Shown here piece after piece: positions 5,922 to 36,201 of a stretch of 36,902 bases of DNA (position 1 is the first letter of the stretch; each line of letters starts with the position of its first letter). Origin of the DNA: Chitinophaga pinensis (lineage in GTDB: Bacteria > Bacteroidota > Bacteroidia > SXHM01). The stretch covers positions 1 to 36,902 of the forward strand of contig CAMAVO010000008.1 in NCBI GenBank assembly GCA_945861685.1, given 5' to 3'. Made by a program: the position numbers and the translations under genes. The notes beneath the pieces are model-generated. The model did not search any database, was not told the DNA's origin, and saw only the letters and a list, made by a program, of their open reading frames with translations.

Positions 5922-5945
5922 TTTCGGTTGCTCTTAAAAAGACCC

Positions 5946-6270
5946 CTGTTTTTGTTTTCAAAACACGCGCTGTCCTCTATTGCATTGTGCCTTTTGTAAA
6001 GGAAACAGGCGTTGGCATATATGCCATCAGGTGTTTTGTTAAAAAAATACGCACAGTTATATATGACATCCTGTGTTTTGTAAACAAAACACCCGCTGTT
6101 ACACATACCATTCTATCTTTTGCTTACAAAATACCCAATGTTATATATGACATTGAGTATTTTGAACTAAAAACACGCTCCGGCATATATGCCAGACCGT
6201 GTTTTGTAAAGAAAACAGGCGCTGCAATATATGACAGCGTGCCTTTTGCTTAGAAAAGGCGCGGTGGCAT
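5946..6270. repeat. 42-bp tandem array of alternating palindromic modules (8 A modules, 7 B modules)
   Basis: The invariant TTTTG core of module A recurs with its G at 5954, 5996, 6038, 6080, 6122, 6164, 6206 and 6248, exactly 42 bases apart each time. Module A has the consensus GTGTTTTGTAAAnAAAACAC; the copy at 6073-6092 is an 8-bp stem with a 4-base loop, and the one at 6241-6260 is GCCTTTT/AAAAGGC. Module B lies between A copies and is centred on ATATAT: TGGCATATATGCCA (6013-6026), GGCATATATGCC (6182-6193), CAATG...CATTG (6136-6155), CGCTG...CAGCG (6220-6239). Arms change between units while staying complementary in the best copies; the first, third and fourth units are degraded. There are no unique spacers, so it is not CRISPR. 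It fills most of the 480-base gap 5922-6401; outside it that gap holds only A/T-rich sequence and a weak promoter-like site near 6330-6356. Confidence 0.93.
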
Positions 6271-6401
6271 TGTTGAAAATCAATGATTTAGATAAAAATG
6301 GGCTAAAAAGTCAAAAGTAATTTTTTCTGTTTGACTTCAATCCTTTTTTATCTTCGTATTAATCAACTTAAGTTTCCCTATACCCCCCTAACCCAATAAC
6401 C

Positions 6402-6752
6402 ATGGAACAGGACGAGCGTATCCGTAACCTTTTGCCTCCCTTACACAAAGCGCAAAAGCAGCTTATTGCCATTGAAAAAATAATAGTTGAAGAACGGGAT
6501 TTTACTAAAGCCTCCATTCTTTTGCTTGCTATTTTGGGTGCTTTGCGCAGCCTTAGTTATCAACATTTTTTGCCGCTGTTTCGCGCAAATATACTGTGGA
6601 GAATAAATGGTTTGCTTGGCAAAACTCAACTTCCTGATTTGTCACGTCAGTATCTTGAAAACACAAGCGATTTATTAAACAACATGAAAGAAAAAGAAGT
6701 GCAACAGGTTTTTATACAACTCAGAAAAATAGAGGAAAATCCGTTGCGCTGA
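6402..6752 (+). CDS. Hypothetical protein, 116 residues
   Basis: Not recognised. A mostly helical, charged protein (MEQDERIRNLLPPLHKAQKQ...) with a moderately hydrophobic middle (ASILLLAILGALRSL, about residues 38-52) that is too polar on both sides to be a clear membrane segment. No signal peptide and no cysteines. The ATG at 6402 follows a C/T-rich leader. A possible promoter, TTTG at 6330-6333 and TATCTTCG at 6349-6356, has a short spacing. It lies between the 42-bp array and another gene of unknown function whose upstream region has a similar 'ACCCCC' leader, so they may be regulated alike. Codon use resembles the neighbours, which supports a real gene. Confidence 0.65.
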   Translation: MEQDERIRNLLPPLHKAQKQLIAIEKIIVEERDFTKASILLLAILGALRSLSYQHFLPLFRANILWRINGLLGKTQLPDLSRQYLENTSDLLNNMKEKEVQQVFIQLRKIEENPLR

Positions 6753-6852: not shown

Positions 6853-7806
6853 ATGACAAGCATTACCCGTAAATTACCCCGTACTATCGAATCGCGTTAC
6901 AAGGCTATTCGTTTTGCCAAAAACAAAAAAGACAGTCTGCCGCCTGCAGGCAACATACTGTCAGTTGCCACCACCACCCGCCTTGACAACATTGTGGTAA
7001 GTTATGAAGCTGCCTATAATGATTTAGGTTTAAAGCAATCAACTTACAGTGGCAATACCCCACTGAAAAATGTAGCCAAAGGGCGCAGCAAAATGTTTAC
7101 CTCGCATTTTATTCAAGTGTTTAATCTGGGTGTGGCACGCGGCATTTACAATGCTGCCCACCGCGCACTTTATAAATTAGAGGTGGGCTCAGATGCCTTA
7201 CCCGAAATGTTAACCGAAGAAGATATAATAAGCTGGGGAAATAAAATTGTAACCGGTGATGCGCAGCGCATCACTCTAGGAGGCGCACCTATGACTAACC
7301 CCACAGCTCCGGAGGTGCAAACCGAGGTATCTGCTTTTGTAGGTTTATTTACTTCGCAAAGTAATCTGAAAGATACCTTAGATACAGCCGAAGAAACACT
7401 GGAAGCCTTATTTGACGAAACCGACAAAGTGATAAGAAAAGTGTGGGACGAAGTAGAAACATTTTACAACGAAGAAGAAACCGACAGCATGCGCAACAAT
7501 GCACGTGAGTGGGGTGTTATTTATATTACAGTGGGTGCAGAATCAACCATCAGCGGAAAAATAACAGGCACCGTTCCTCCTCCGGGTCCGGGGTTGCCTG
7601 TGGCTGTTGCCAACGCAACCATTCTTGTTCTTGAAAGTGATGACCTGACCCAGAGCGATGCCAACGGTGATTATACTTTAAAAACAAAATTTGTAGGCAT
7701 AACTAAAATAAAAGTTACTGCCGATGGGTATGCAGATTATGAAGTGGAAATTGAAATAGCCGAAGCGCAAACCATAACCGTTAATGCAGTGTTGACACCC
7801 TTGTAA
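6853..7806 (+). CDS. Hypothetical protein with C-terminal carboxypeptidase-regulatory-like domain
   Basis: A 317-residue protein. Residues 1-225 are not recognised: a basic N-terminus (MTSITRKLPRTIESRYKAIRFAKNKK) followed by helical sequence. Residues about 230-317 (STISGKITGTVPPPG...ATILVLESDDLTQSDANGDYTLKTKFVGITKIKVTADGYADYEVEIEI) form a single beta-sandwich of the CarboxypepD_reg type. No signal peptide, lipobox or T9SS tail is visible although that domain is usually found outside the cytoplasm. Its own promoter lies upstream and a strong hairpin terminator downstream, so it is probably a single-gene transcript. Confidence 0.75.
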   Translation: MTSITRKLPRTIESRYKAIRFAKNKKDSLPPAGNILSVATTTRLDNIVVSYEAAYNDLGLKQSTYSGNTPLKNVAKGRSKMFTSHFIQVFNLGVARGIYNAAHRALYKLEVGSDALPEMLTEEDIISWGNKIVTGDAQRITLGGAPMTNPTAPEVQTEVSAFVGLFTSQSNLKDTLDTAEETLEALFDETDKVIRKVWDEVETFYNEEETDSMRNNAREWGVIYITVGAESTISGKITGTVPPPGPGLPVAVANATILVLESDDLTQSDANGDYTLKTKFVGITKIKVTADGYADYEVEIEIAEAQTITVNAVLTPL

Positions 7807-7887: not shown

Positions 7888-10614
7888 CTACTCAGCCTGC
7901 ACTGCTATTGTAAAATAAAAAACACTTCCTTCACCTGCTTTTGATTCAACCCAGATTCTCCCGTTGTGCAGTTCCACAATTTTTTTGCAGTGCGATAAGC
8001 CAATGCCCGAACCTTTATAATTATCGCTCGAATGCAGGCGCTGGAAAAGCAGAAATATTTTTTCAAAATGTTTCCCGTCTATTCCAATTCCGTTATCTGC
8101 AAATGAAAATTCCCATTCATGCTCGCGTTTTTTTGCTTTAATATTAATTTCAGTTGCAACCTCTTTTTTTCTGAATTTAATAGCATTGCCAATCAAATTC
8201 TGAAATAACAGTTCCATCTCAATCGGGTACGCTTTCAGCACAGGAAGATTTTCAGCTATTATAACTGCCTCGCTTTCTTTTATGGAAACGTGTAAATTTT
8301 CCATTGCATGTTTCAGAATATCATTGCAATCGCTTTGTTGTAAAATAATTTTATTGCCCAGTCGTGAGTAGTCGAGTAAGGCAGTTATTAAATCGCGCAT
8401 GCGCATTGCCGATTGAGAAATAAAGCGGACATAGGTATTTGCGTTGTTGTCAAATTTTGCAGCGTACTCATCAGTGAGCAACTCTGTAAAACTGCTTATA
8501 GTGCGCAGTGGTTCCTGCAAATCATGTGATGCAATGAATGCATACTGCTCTAATTCCTTGTTTTTTATTTCCAATTGGTTATAGAAATCCCTTAGTTTTT
8601 GGTTAGTCAGTTTTCTTTCAGTAATATCTAAAACGGTTCCCCGCATATATATTGCTTTGTCATCACTATCTCTTTCAACATCACCTCTTGCTTCAATGTA
8701 TTTTATTTCCCCCTTTTTTGTAATTATTCTATATTCGGTTTCAAATTTATATACACCCTTCAAAGCTAATTCAATAGCCAGCAATACATTGCTTTTATCA
8801 TCGGGATGCAGGCAATTAACAAACAAAGAATAGGAGGATTCAATTTCTCCGGGCTCGTAGCCAAAAATTCTATACTGCTCATCCGACCATTTTTCTTTGC
8901 CCGTTGTAATATCCCATTCCCAACTCCCCAGCCTTGCAATTTTCTGGGCAATAGCAAGACTGTTTCGTGTTTTTTCTATTGAAATTTCAAATTCTTTTCG
9001 CTCGGTAATATCCTGAGTTGTTCCTTTCAGCCATATAGATTCGCCTTCTTCGTTTTTAATTATTTCGCCAAGCCCTAACAGGTGCTTGATACTTCCGTCT
9101 CCCATAATCACCCTGTGTTCATAAACAGCTGCTACCCCTGCTTCGTTTGCCAGGTTTATTGCATCATCAAGGTTTGCAATATCATCGGGATGAATTTTTT
9201 TCCGGCATACTTCAAAAAGTTTTTCAGCAGGTGTTTCCTCTACCTCAAAAATGTGATAGAGCTCATCAGACCAAAATAACGCACCGGTTTTGAGGTTAAA
9301 CTCCCAGCTACCGGTTTTTGATAATTTTTGGGCATCGTTAAGGCTCTTTCTGCTTTTCCGGTTTTCTTTTTCAATGGCTTTTCGTTCGGTTATATCAATA
9401 AGTGTAGTGAGCATGTGAGGCTCACCATCTAGTTCAATTAGTAGTGTTGAGGTAAGTATGTCAATTCTTCTGCCGGTTGAGCTCCTCAGCTTAACTTCCA
9501 CATCCTGCATGTTGTAGTTTTTTTCTTTTACATGTTCAAGAATGTCTTCTCGTTTTTTAGTGTCTATGATATTAAACTCTGCAGAAGTTTTTCCTATTAC
9601 CTGTTCTCGTGTAAGAGAAAACAATTTTAAAAACGCATTATTTGCATGAAGATAGTGCCCGTCTTTTACCCTGATAATATTGGTTGGAACCGGGCTTGAT
9701 TTGAAAAATTTAAAAAACCGTTCGTGCGAGAGTGACAATTCTTTTTCAACCTCATTGCGTTTGGCATTGACCTTATTCAGCTGCGCAGCTACATGCCAGG
9801 TAATAAAAAAGAACACAAGCATAGCATTAATTACCCCAAAGGCCACCAGCAATTCAGCATTTACATTGTAATGGTGGACAATGTAAAGAAGTTCTATTCC
9901 AAGAAAAAACGGGAAGAGTACAATTCCCGGAACCAATACACGGGCTAAGAGCCCACCCGGGTCAGAACCCGAAAAGGTGTGCATAAATCCCTGGTTGTGA
10001 TTGTAGAACATTACAGCCAAGGCAGCAATCAGAAAGCATATTGCCGTATGCACAGCCATAGGATATTTTGCAAGTAGTTCTATAAATTCGGGAATAAAAT
10101 AGACATAGCCGAGCGCAAAAAAAAGTCCGATAAGAAAAGTGCCCAGTGCCAGGTAATTTGCAATTGATTTTAAGATTATTTTTTTACTTCCGCTTAAAAT
10201 AATTGAACAGCCAAGCAGAATAAAATTCAGCGCTGTAGCCGGTGCAATTTGGCTTATGCTGCCTCGTGATTTTTCATTGAAAATTTTAGTATTAAACAGC
10301 CATTCTTCTTCTCCAATAGTTGTAGAAAAAATAATATCGGAAAGTTTTAAAACACCAATAAGGATAACAGTTGCTGCTAAAACTATACTTAGCCATTTAA
10401 ATGTATGCTTTTCTGTACTATTCTTTGTAACAAGAAAAATAGCAACTCCTGATAAAAAAAATCCGAGTGCCGTTAGTGGGTTCATAGCAACAAGCCCCGG
10501 AATGGGGCGTTTCAGAAATTCAATATCAAATTGCCAACCTAGCAGCACAAGAAAACCGACTGTAGTAATAGCTAAACCTAAAAAACCTGCTATTTTATTT
10601 TGTGTGGTTTGCAT
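7888..10614 (-). CDS. Membrane-bound multi-PAS hybrid-less sensor histidine kinase
   Basis: A 908-residue kinase. The N-terminal 260 or so residues hold about seven or eight hydrophobic segments (for example IAGFLGLAITTVGFLVLLGW and VPGIVLFPFFLGIELLYIV), an integral-membrane sensor domain of the MASE kind. Three PAS/PAC units follow (about 295-410, 420-540 and 545-665), each closing with a D-I-T-E-R-K signature. The phospho-acceptor is His697 in ASHDLQEPLRT, which is the phytochrome-like H-box, followed by NLIGNAIKF (N box), DNGIGI (G1) and GSGIGLSHCKKIVE (G2). No receiver domain is attached. It lies 25 bases after a CheY-like gene in the same direction, so those receivers are its likely partners. 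The signal is unknown. Confidence 0.92.
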   Translation of the reverse strand: MQTTQNKIAGFLGLAITTVGFLVLLGWQFDIEFLKRPIPGLVAMNPLTALGFFLSGVAIFLVTKNSTEKHTFKWLSIVLAATVILIGVLKLSDIIFSTTIGEEEWLFNTKIFNEKSRGSISQIAPATALNFILLGCSIILSGSKKIILKSIANYLALGTFLIGLFFALGYVYFIPEFIELLAKYPMAVHTAICFLIAALAVMFYNHNQGFMHTFSGSDPGGLLARVLVPGIVLFPFFLGIELLYIVHHYNVNAELLVAFGVINAMLVFFFITWHVAAQLNKVNAKRNEVEKELSLSHERFFKFFKSSPVPTNIIRVKDGHYLHANNAFLKLFSLTREQVIGKTSAEFNIIDTKKREDILEHVKEKNYNMQDVEVKLRSSTGRRIDILTSTLLIELDGEPHMLTTLIDITERKAIEKENRKSRKSLNDAQKLSKTGSWEFNLKTGALFWSDELYHIFEVEETPAEKLFEVCRKKIHPDDIANLDDAINLANEAGVAAVYEHRVIMGDGSIKHLLGLGEIIKNEEGESIWLKGTTQDITERKEFEISIEKTRNSLAIAQKIARLGSWEWDITTGKEKWSDEQYRIFGYEPGEIESSYSLFVNCLHPDDKSNVLLAIELALKGVYKFETEYRIITKKGEIKYIEARGDVERDSDDKAIYMRGTVLDITERKLTNQKLRDFYNQLEIKNKELEQYAFIASHDLQEPLRTISSFTELLTDEYAAKFDNNANTYVRFISQSAMRMRDLITALLDYSRLGNKIILQQSDCNDILKHAMENLHVSIKESEAVIIAENLPVLKAYPIEMELLFQNLIGNAIKFRKKEVATEINIKAKKREHEWEFSFADNGIGIDGKHFEKIFLLFQRLHSSDNYKGSGIGLSHCKKIVELHNGRIWVESKAGEGSVFYFTIAVQAE

Positions 10615-36177: not shown

Positions 36178-36201
36178 GTCACCCTGAGCGTAGTCGAAGG
36201 G
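36178..36201. repeat. Dispersed GTCACCCTGAGCG-type repeat after topA
   Basis: GTCACCCTGAGCGTAG followed by TCGAAGGG is a wording I recall as very common in intergenic regions of Bacteroidota. CCCT and AGGG can pair. It shares the GTCA-prefix with the doublet at 2266. Confidence 0.6.

Follow-up and report, generated by a model that had tools for sequence, protein, structure and literature searches.

Our results reveal a class of tandem DNA arrays that keep their spacing and, often, their place 5' of particular protein families, while their sequence is free. One such array lies at about 5945 to 6285 of the window, by which we mean the whole 36,902-nucleotide stretch of Chitinophaga pinensis DNA that was analyzed. 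We tentatively interpret it, with slightly less than an even chance of being right, as a double-stranded-DNA element that would load a dimeric or polymerizing DNA-binding protein to control the adjacent gene.

An array of exact 42-bp units

The array consists of eight units of exactly 42 bp, with similarity fading in the B half of the eighth. An earlier note on this DNA, made from the letters alone, had described eight TTTTG cores at this spacing, and the cores do start at 5950, 5992, 6034, 6076, 6118, 6160, 6202, and 6244 (5950 + 42k, k = 0 to 7) without an indel. Self-identity is 0.63 to 0.64 at shifts of 42, 84, and 126, whereas no other shift from 5 to 139 goes above 0.44, and the units differ mutually by about 37%. 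The two dyads per period that the note had reported are also present. Dyad A, which has the consensus TTTTGN4CAAAA and reads TTTTGttttCAAAA in unit 1 (5950 to 5963, repeating at +42k), has its center between unit columns 6 and 7; that of dyad B, around ATATAT, falls between columns 27 and 28, exactly 21 bp away. Pairing varies along the array: dyad B of unit 5 (CAATGTTATATATGACATTG, 6136 to 6155) is among the best paired, and the outer arms are degraded in the dyad A where units 4 and 5 meet (6113 to 6136, the TTTTG at 6118 with its flanking arms). All of the arms listed in the note were found (TGGC/GCCA, CAATG/CATTG, CGCTG/CAGCG, GTGTTTTG/CAAAACAC, and GCCTTTT/AAAAGGC). Because a repeat that equals its own reverse complement must have two dyad centers half a period apart, two palindromes 21 bp apart amount to one symmetry and not to two facts. 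That symmetry is strong, with the consensus unit 81% complementary, compared with 49% in shuffles (z = 6.3).

The further claim that arm changes compensate one another held up in part. Within the window array, pairing between the two arms of one unit is no better than between arms taken from different units (62 versus 59.6 expected; p = 0.28), so the palindrome resides mostly in the shared consensus. The covariation test that the note had proposed was significant on 17 two-unit rows (score of 0.233 versus 0.143 ± 0.018, reached by 0 of 500 shuffles, with slid controls at 0.096 or less), a score that is inflated by relatedness and row overlap, given that the rows overlap and come from five arrays at three distinct loci. 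One clear two-pair exchange was documented in the last dyad A (GCCTTTTGCTTAGAAAAGGC, 6241 to 6260; GTGTTTTGCTTAGAAAACAC in sister species), where the window has GCC/GGC and two other genomes of the genus, G006 and G003, have GTG/CAC. The array at G003:C11 carries a mismatched GTG..GGC, and so each paired state may be a single template-switch step away. Over 31 arrays, a set partly ascertained by sequence, deviating cells stayed Watson-Crick in 8.1% of cases within the same dyad, compared with 4.4% in neighboring-unit controls. Overall, then, the arms co-change only weakly.

Of six other genomes of the genus, two (G003 and G006) carry this array as well, with about 95% identity and the same upstream flank, and it is indel-free in all three species. 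At one other array, sister species differ in length by exactly 84 bp, or two units, and G003 has two further arrays with a 42-bp period. When a model of two-unit rows was searched by sequence only, the same architecture was recovered in three genomes from one genus of another Bacteroidia family (best E value, 2e-9), with TTTTGN4CAAAA accompanied by a TGTTAYRTNTGACA-like B dyad. In the window's own genome, the window array alone was significant by E value. Thus, the search of this genome and other Bacteroidota that the note had suggested yielded copies in sister species, along with similar arrays elsewhere in the genus and in a second family. More broadly, at least 119 stretches with three TTTTN6AAAA cores spaced at 42 bp were found in public genomes, many of them in Bacteroidota and many of them 21-bp arrays or two alternating 21-bp halves. 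Draconibacterium and Niastella are among the genera with TTTTN6AAAA arrays at 42 bp.

Several observations stand beside this distribution. In G003, the sequence diverges about 30 bp past the array (L020, G003:C115, about 1000 to 1040) and the 317-aa gene is on another contig (L251, G003:C59), reflecting an insertion or an assembly break between the array and its partner. Viral contigs contained 19 stretches with the TTTTN6AAAA trimer, made up of two recurrent groups of related contigs plus single matches, and the protein family of the 317-aa gene, which we call fam310, was not seen encoded on the contigs with these stretches. Nine viral contigs (L172, L173, L175, L176, L180, L183, L186, L188, and L189) have in common a short array with a 42-bp period that overlaps the start of a conserved 212-aa gene; these are related phages and a separate phenomenon. 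Finally, the window has dispersed copies of an imperfect palindrome at 2264 to 2325 (GTCATGCTGAGCTTGTTTCAGCATCT...) and 36178 to 36201 (GTCACCCTGAGCGTAGTCGAAGGG), an ordinary REP-like repeat that is unrelated to the 42-bp array.

Period and genomic neighbors of the arrays

The period of the class was examined in draft metagenome-assembled genomes, using open reading frames from a simple caller and loci that are not phylogenetically independent. In 800 kb of genome G002, array segments were found at 21 bp (13 segments), 42 bp (19), 63 bp (14), and 84 bp (14), and none were found at 19 to 20, 22 to 23, 39 to 41, or 43 to 44 bp. Other period peaks in that genome were mostly multiples of 9 and came from collagen-like coding repeats. 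The window's own genome had 11 arrays in 434 kb, nine with periods of 21, 42, or 63 bp, one of 20/61, and one of 22/44. Across 1.2 Mb of two genomes of the same genus, nearly all intergenic arrays had periods of 21n. The few that broke this rule (20/41/61, 22/44, and 22/43/65) were off by a base or two, which helical phasing can accommodate and a reading frame cannot. Density was about one array per 40 kb in the two genomes sampled. Within 42-bp units, G/T versus A/C composition alternates at 21 bp (z = 7.2).

In the window, the array is followed on the plus strand by the 116-aa open reading frame (6402 to 6752), which had no match in Pfam, PHROG, or NCBIfam, and by the 317-aa gene (6853 to 7806), a member of the multicopy fam310 whose product has a helical N-terminal domain and a carboxypeptidase-regulatory (transthyretin-like) C-terminal domain. 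Several arrays in the second family stand before relatives of this gene. When we searched for fam310 by protein, ignoring arrays, 23 of 295 Bacteroidia genomes had matches and 30 loci were read. A 42-bp array lay 5' of the gene in 22 of the 29 loci with enough upstream sequence, and at these loci 42 bp outscored every other period between 15 and 63 (identity of 0.64 to 1.0). Because several of these loci are mutually orthologous, they represent about 18 independent cases. Usually no more than about 150 bp, and sometimes 300 to 500 bp, separate the end of the array from the start codon; six clear exceptions were shorter, distant relatives of the family. As a background, 19 of 623 open reading frames in G002 had an array no more than 600 bp upstream (Fisher p of about 6e-24, uncorrected for relatedness).

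Despite this linkage, unit similarity between fam310 loci was at the level of shuffled sequence (mean of 0.44 versus 0.43), meaning that unit sequences are private to each locus, and there was no significant correlation between divergence of the array and divergence of the protein (Mantel r = 0.08, p = 0.20). The earlier note missed both the linkage to downstream gene families and the locus-private sequence. One fam310 member with a 42-bp array in front, in a metagenome-assembled genome labeled Anaerolineae (L149, 6286 to 7420), was found by DNA pattern alone and suggests wide spread or transfer.

A second family, TGN-FN3, shows a similar association. A phylum-wide search returned seven loci, four with clear upstream arrays at 21 or 42 bp, one in the window's own genome at 20/41/61, and two at noise level. 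In G277, a less related genome, the only 21n array in 385 kb stands at a TGN-FN3 gene. Plain 21-bp arrays also occur upstream of a protein family that has 42-bp arrays (L321 and L324). For the 317-aa protein, AlphaFold2 modeled a transthyretin-like domain and a helical domain that includes a 58-residue helix (pLDDT of 84), and for the TGN family a helical domain plus FN3 (pLDDT of 90); the helical domain had no convincing match in PDB or viral structure libraries. Furthermore, 10 of the 20 intergenic arrays in G002 are followed by a gene for a protein of 200 to 400 aa without an obvious signal peptide, with a helical-looking N terminus and, mostly, an FN3 or carboxypeptidase-regulatory C terminus (assigned partly by eye).

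About half of the arrays stand at other genes or between convergent genes. A 42-bp array with well-paired dyads (ACACAGGCACGTGTGT) in the window's own genome (L332, G000:C3:20001-40000, locus coordinates 687 to 983) sits between convergent genes, and so not all arrays precede a gene. Arrays also adjoin genes for a secreted Endonuclease I that carries a type IX sorting domain, lying between a TonB-dependent receptor and Endonuclease I in two species of one genus (L230 and L247) and directly behind the Endonuclease I gene in G003, of the window's genus (L022). Separately, in a PAS histidine kinase gene on the minus strand of the window (7888 to 10614), positions 8578 to 8985 fail to align with sister species G006 while the flanks align at 94 to 97%, a possible replacement of the sensor domain.

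Double-stranded DNA, RNA, and rival origins

Among folded RNA, cruciform DNA, and dimeric protein sites in phase, the three readings offered by the earlier note, the invariant 21n spacing favors the third. Consensus symmetry was evident in the 42-bp class (median z of 2.2; p < 0.05 in 14 of 31 arrays, which were partly ascertained by sequence), whereas the 21-bp class was not clearly palindromic (median z of 0.7). Since symmetry clearly marks only the 42-bp class, yet both classes precede the same protein family, the module is 21 bp long and the arrays are either direct or alternating in orientation. By the same reasoning, pairing is dispensable and phase is not. Where pairing is kept, it is at chance at the innermost pair, 0.66 at the next pair (chance, 0.26), highest at five to six bases from the dyad center (0.77 to 0.79), and near chance by nine, spanning about 16 bp; the axis was picked to maximize pairing, which inflates all of these values alike. 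Pairing one base from the center would imply a 2-nucleotide loop, so a hairpin could not close there. Taken together, the evidence favors double-stranded DNA with a two-turn phase over RNA folding.

There was no A/T periodicity at 10.5 bp over the 31 42-bp arrays (z = 0.2), which speaks against curved DNA with phased A-tracts and indicates that A-tract bending is not the point. The spacing of 21 bp, along with a LytTR gene near G068:C1, prompted us to consider LytTR operators, but the site [TA][AC][CA]GTTN[AG][TG] was not enriched (20 occurrences versus 16.1 ± 6.1 expected). The core shared between arrays is weak (GGAAA and AAACC). Thus, neither a known site type nor curvature explains recognition. 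Phased tandem operators of dimeric regulators, including LytTR-type direct repeats about 21 bp apart, share with our arrays a position upstream of a gene and dyads or direct repeats set a whole number of helical turns apart. Yet the present arrays have far more copies and private sequences, in addition to showing no enrichment of the LytTR 9-mer.

An argument can be made that the arrays are transcribed and act as RNA hairpins in a leader or 3' region, where they would affect stability, cause attenuation, or bind the encoded protein. The whole array folds strongly on either strand (z of −8.9 and −8.4), the consensus pairs and co-changes in the alignment of related units, and most fam310 arrays end close to the start codon. 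However, strong folding on both strands would be expected of any such array, and the array is strand-symmetric. Exact 21-nt spacing is not needed by RNA, 21-bp arrays, also where they stand at the same gene family, are not clearly palindromic, and pairing is kept where a hairpin could not close. Moreover, there was no clear excess of G·U over A·C among deviating cells of the 31 arrays (18.3% versus 18.0%; 83 versus 67 in a separate tally), which counts against RNA among the note's three readings. We therefore consider an RNA element improbable. Type III toxin-antitoxin (ToxI-like) RNAs are likewise tandem repeats of about 35 to 42 nt upstream of a protein gene, as is the array described here with its 42-nt units. 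They differ in that no nuclease-toxin family was matched in the 317-aa partner, and in that our arrays are nearly strand-symmetric and include 21-bp arrays at the same gene families. No Rfam match reached the gathering score in the window.

A stronger contender, although still unlikely in our estimation, is that the arrays arose as minisatellites that grew in place and regulate nothing. A mutational or enzymatic process working in 21-bp steps would amplify any sequence, and template-switch correction of imperfect palindromes would produce symmetric units and paired arm exchanges. Such an origin fits the private sequence at each locus, the gain or loss of whole units, the weak same-unit co-change (8.1% versus 4.4%), and the GTG..GGC at G003:C11, from which both GCC/GGC and GTG/CAC arms could arise in a single step. 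It does not account for why arrays so strongly favor positions 5' of two particular families of proteins, nor for an array that is indel-free in three species despite unit divergence of about 37%, and no slippage mechanism known to us advances in constant 21-bp steps. An origin as mobile-element repeats (REP/BIME or MITE) is very improbable, even though the arrays are intergenic, palindromic, and found in many genomes. REP families, some of them in tandem, are also intergenic palindromes, but they share sequence genome-wide. Our arrays do not: units from different fam310 loci resemble each other no more than shuffled sequence does, and the search of the window's own genome returned only the window array at a significant E value, which counts against REP/BIME. 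Among MITEs, BrickBuilt of Porphyromonas gingivalis is a minisatellite/MITE with one unit sequence at 19 loci, terminal inverted repeats, and a unit number that varies between strains, and MITE464/PgRS has 41-nt direct repeats (PMC4596501). BrickBuilt is similar in being an intergenic, spacer-free row of short tandem units (23 nt) in Bacteroidota (PMC4596501). It is unlike the present arrays, which have locus-own sequence, a 21n period, and an association with certain protein families; fam310-linked arrays showed no obvious conserved repeats at their ends. The window array also occupies the same place, with high identity, in two sister species, and no relatives of the 317-aa window protein in phage records or of a TGN-FN3 protein in plasmid records were found. 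Least probable of all, with next to no chance in our view, is that the arrays encode repeat peptides, 42 bp being 14 codons and 21 bp a heptad. A plus-strand 88-aa frame with a 14-codon unit (5987 to 6253) is open through the window array, and 21 is divisible by 3. But this frame has a stop in G006, its 15 variable sites between species fall 7, 5, and 3 at codon positions 1, 2, and 3, and position 2 is the least conserved between units. In addition, several arrays of the class have stops in all six frames, and periods of 20/61 and 22/43/65 exist. The 88-aa frame is spurious and the window array is non-coding. A CRISPR array was also rejected, given the absence of spacers, the divergence of the units, and the lack of a Cas domain among the eight flanking proteins scanned.

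Implications of conserved geometry

Under our preferred reading of a double-stranded-DNA element, modules two helical turns apart would stand in a row, alternating in orientation in the window array so that each 42-bp unit holds two modules and a dyad recurs every 21 bp. A putative dimeric or polymerizing protein could load on one face of the helix and turn the array into a long operator or nucleoprotein platform that would control the neighboring gene or operon, here the 116-aa open reading frame and the 317-aa helical/transthyretin-like gene. Locus-private sequence is unusual for operators of a single regulator and counts against this interpretation, as do the weakness of the shared core, the lack of enrichment of LytTR sites and of a 10.5-bp A/T signal, and the location of about half of the arrays at other genes or between convergent ones. 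A broader proposal, which we advance with somewhat greater reserve, is that a two-part system exists in Bacteroidota and some other bacteria, in which a sequence-private array of 21-bp modules is coupled to genes for cytosolic-looking proteins that join a helical domain to a C-terminal beta-sandwich. In such a system, inheritance would preserve the array's geometry and not its sequence.

We refer to the array class as new based on its differences from the known systems considered above, and because no description of 21/42-bp arrays in Bacteroidota was found in the open-license full-text literature. Should the arrays turn out to bind an ordinary regulator, they would be better seen as a variation on a familiar theme. 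Regulatory and repeat elements are normally recognized by conserved sequence, whereas what is conserved here is module length, 21 bp or a multiple of it. With spacing and often place conserved and sequence free, the class escapes searches by sequence. Were a protein to read the phase, the arrays would constitute a sequence-tolerant DNA element that is read by its geometry; if instead a process writes 21-bp steps, they would point to a new kind of repeat-making machinery.
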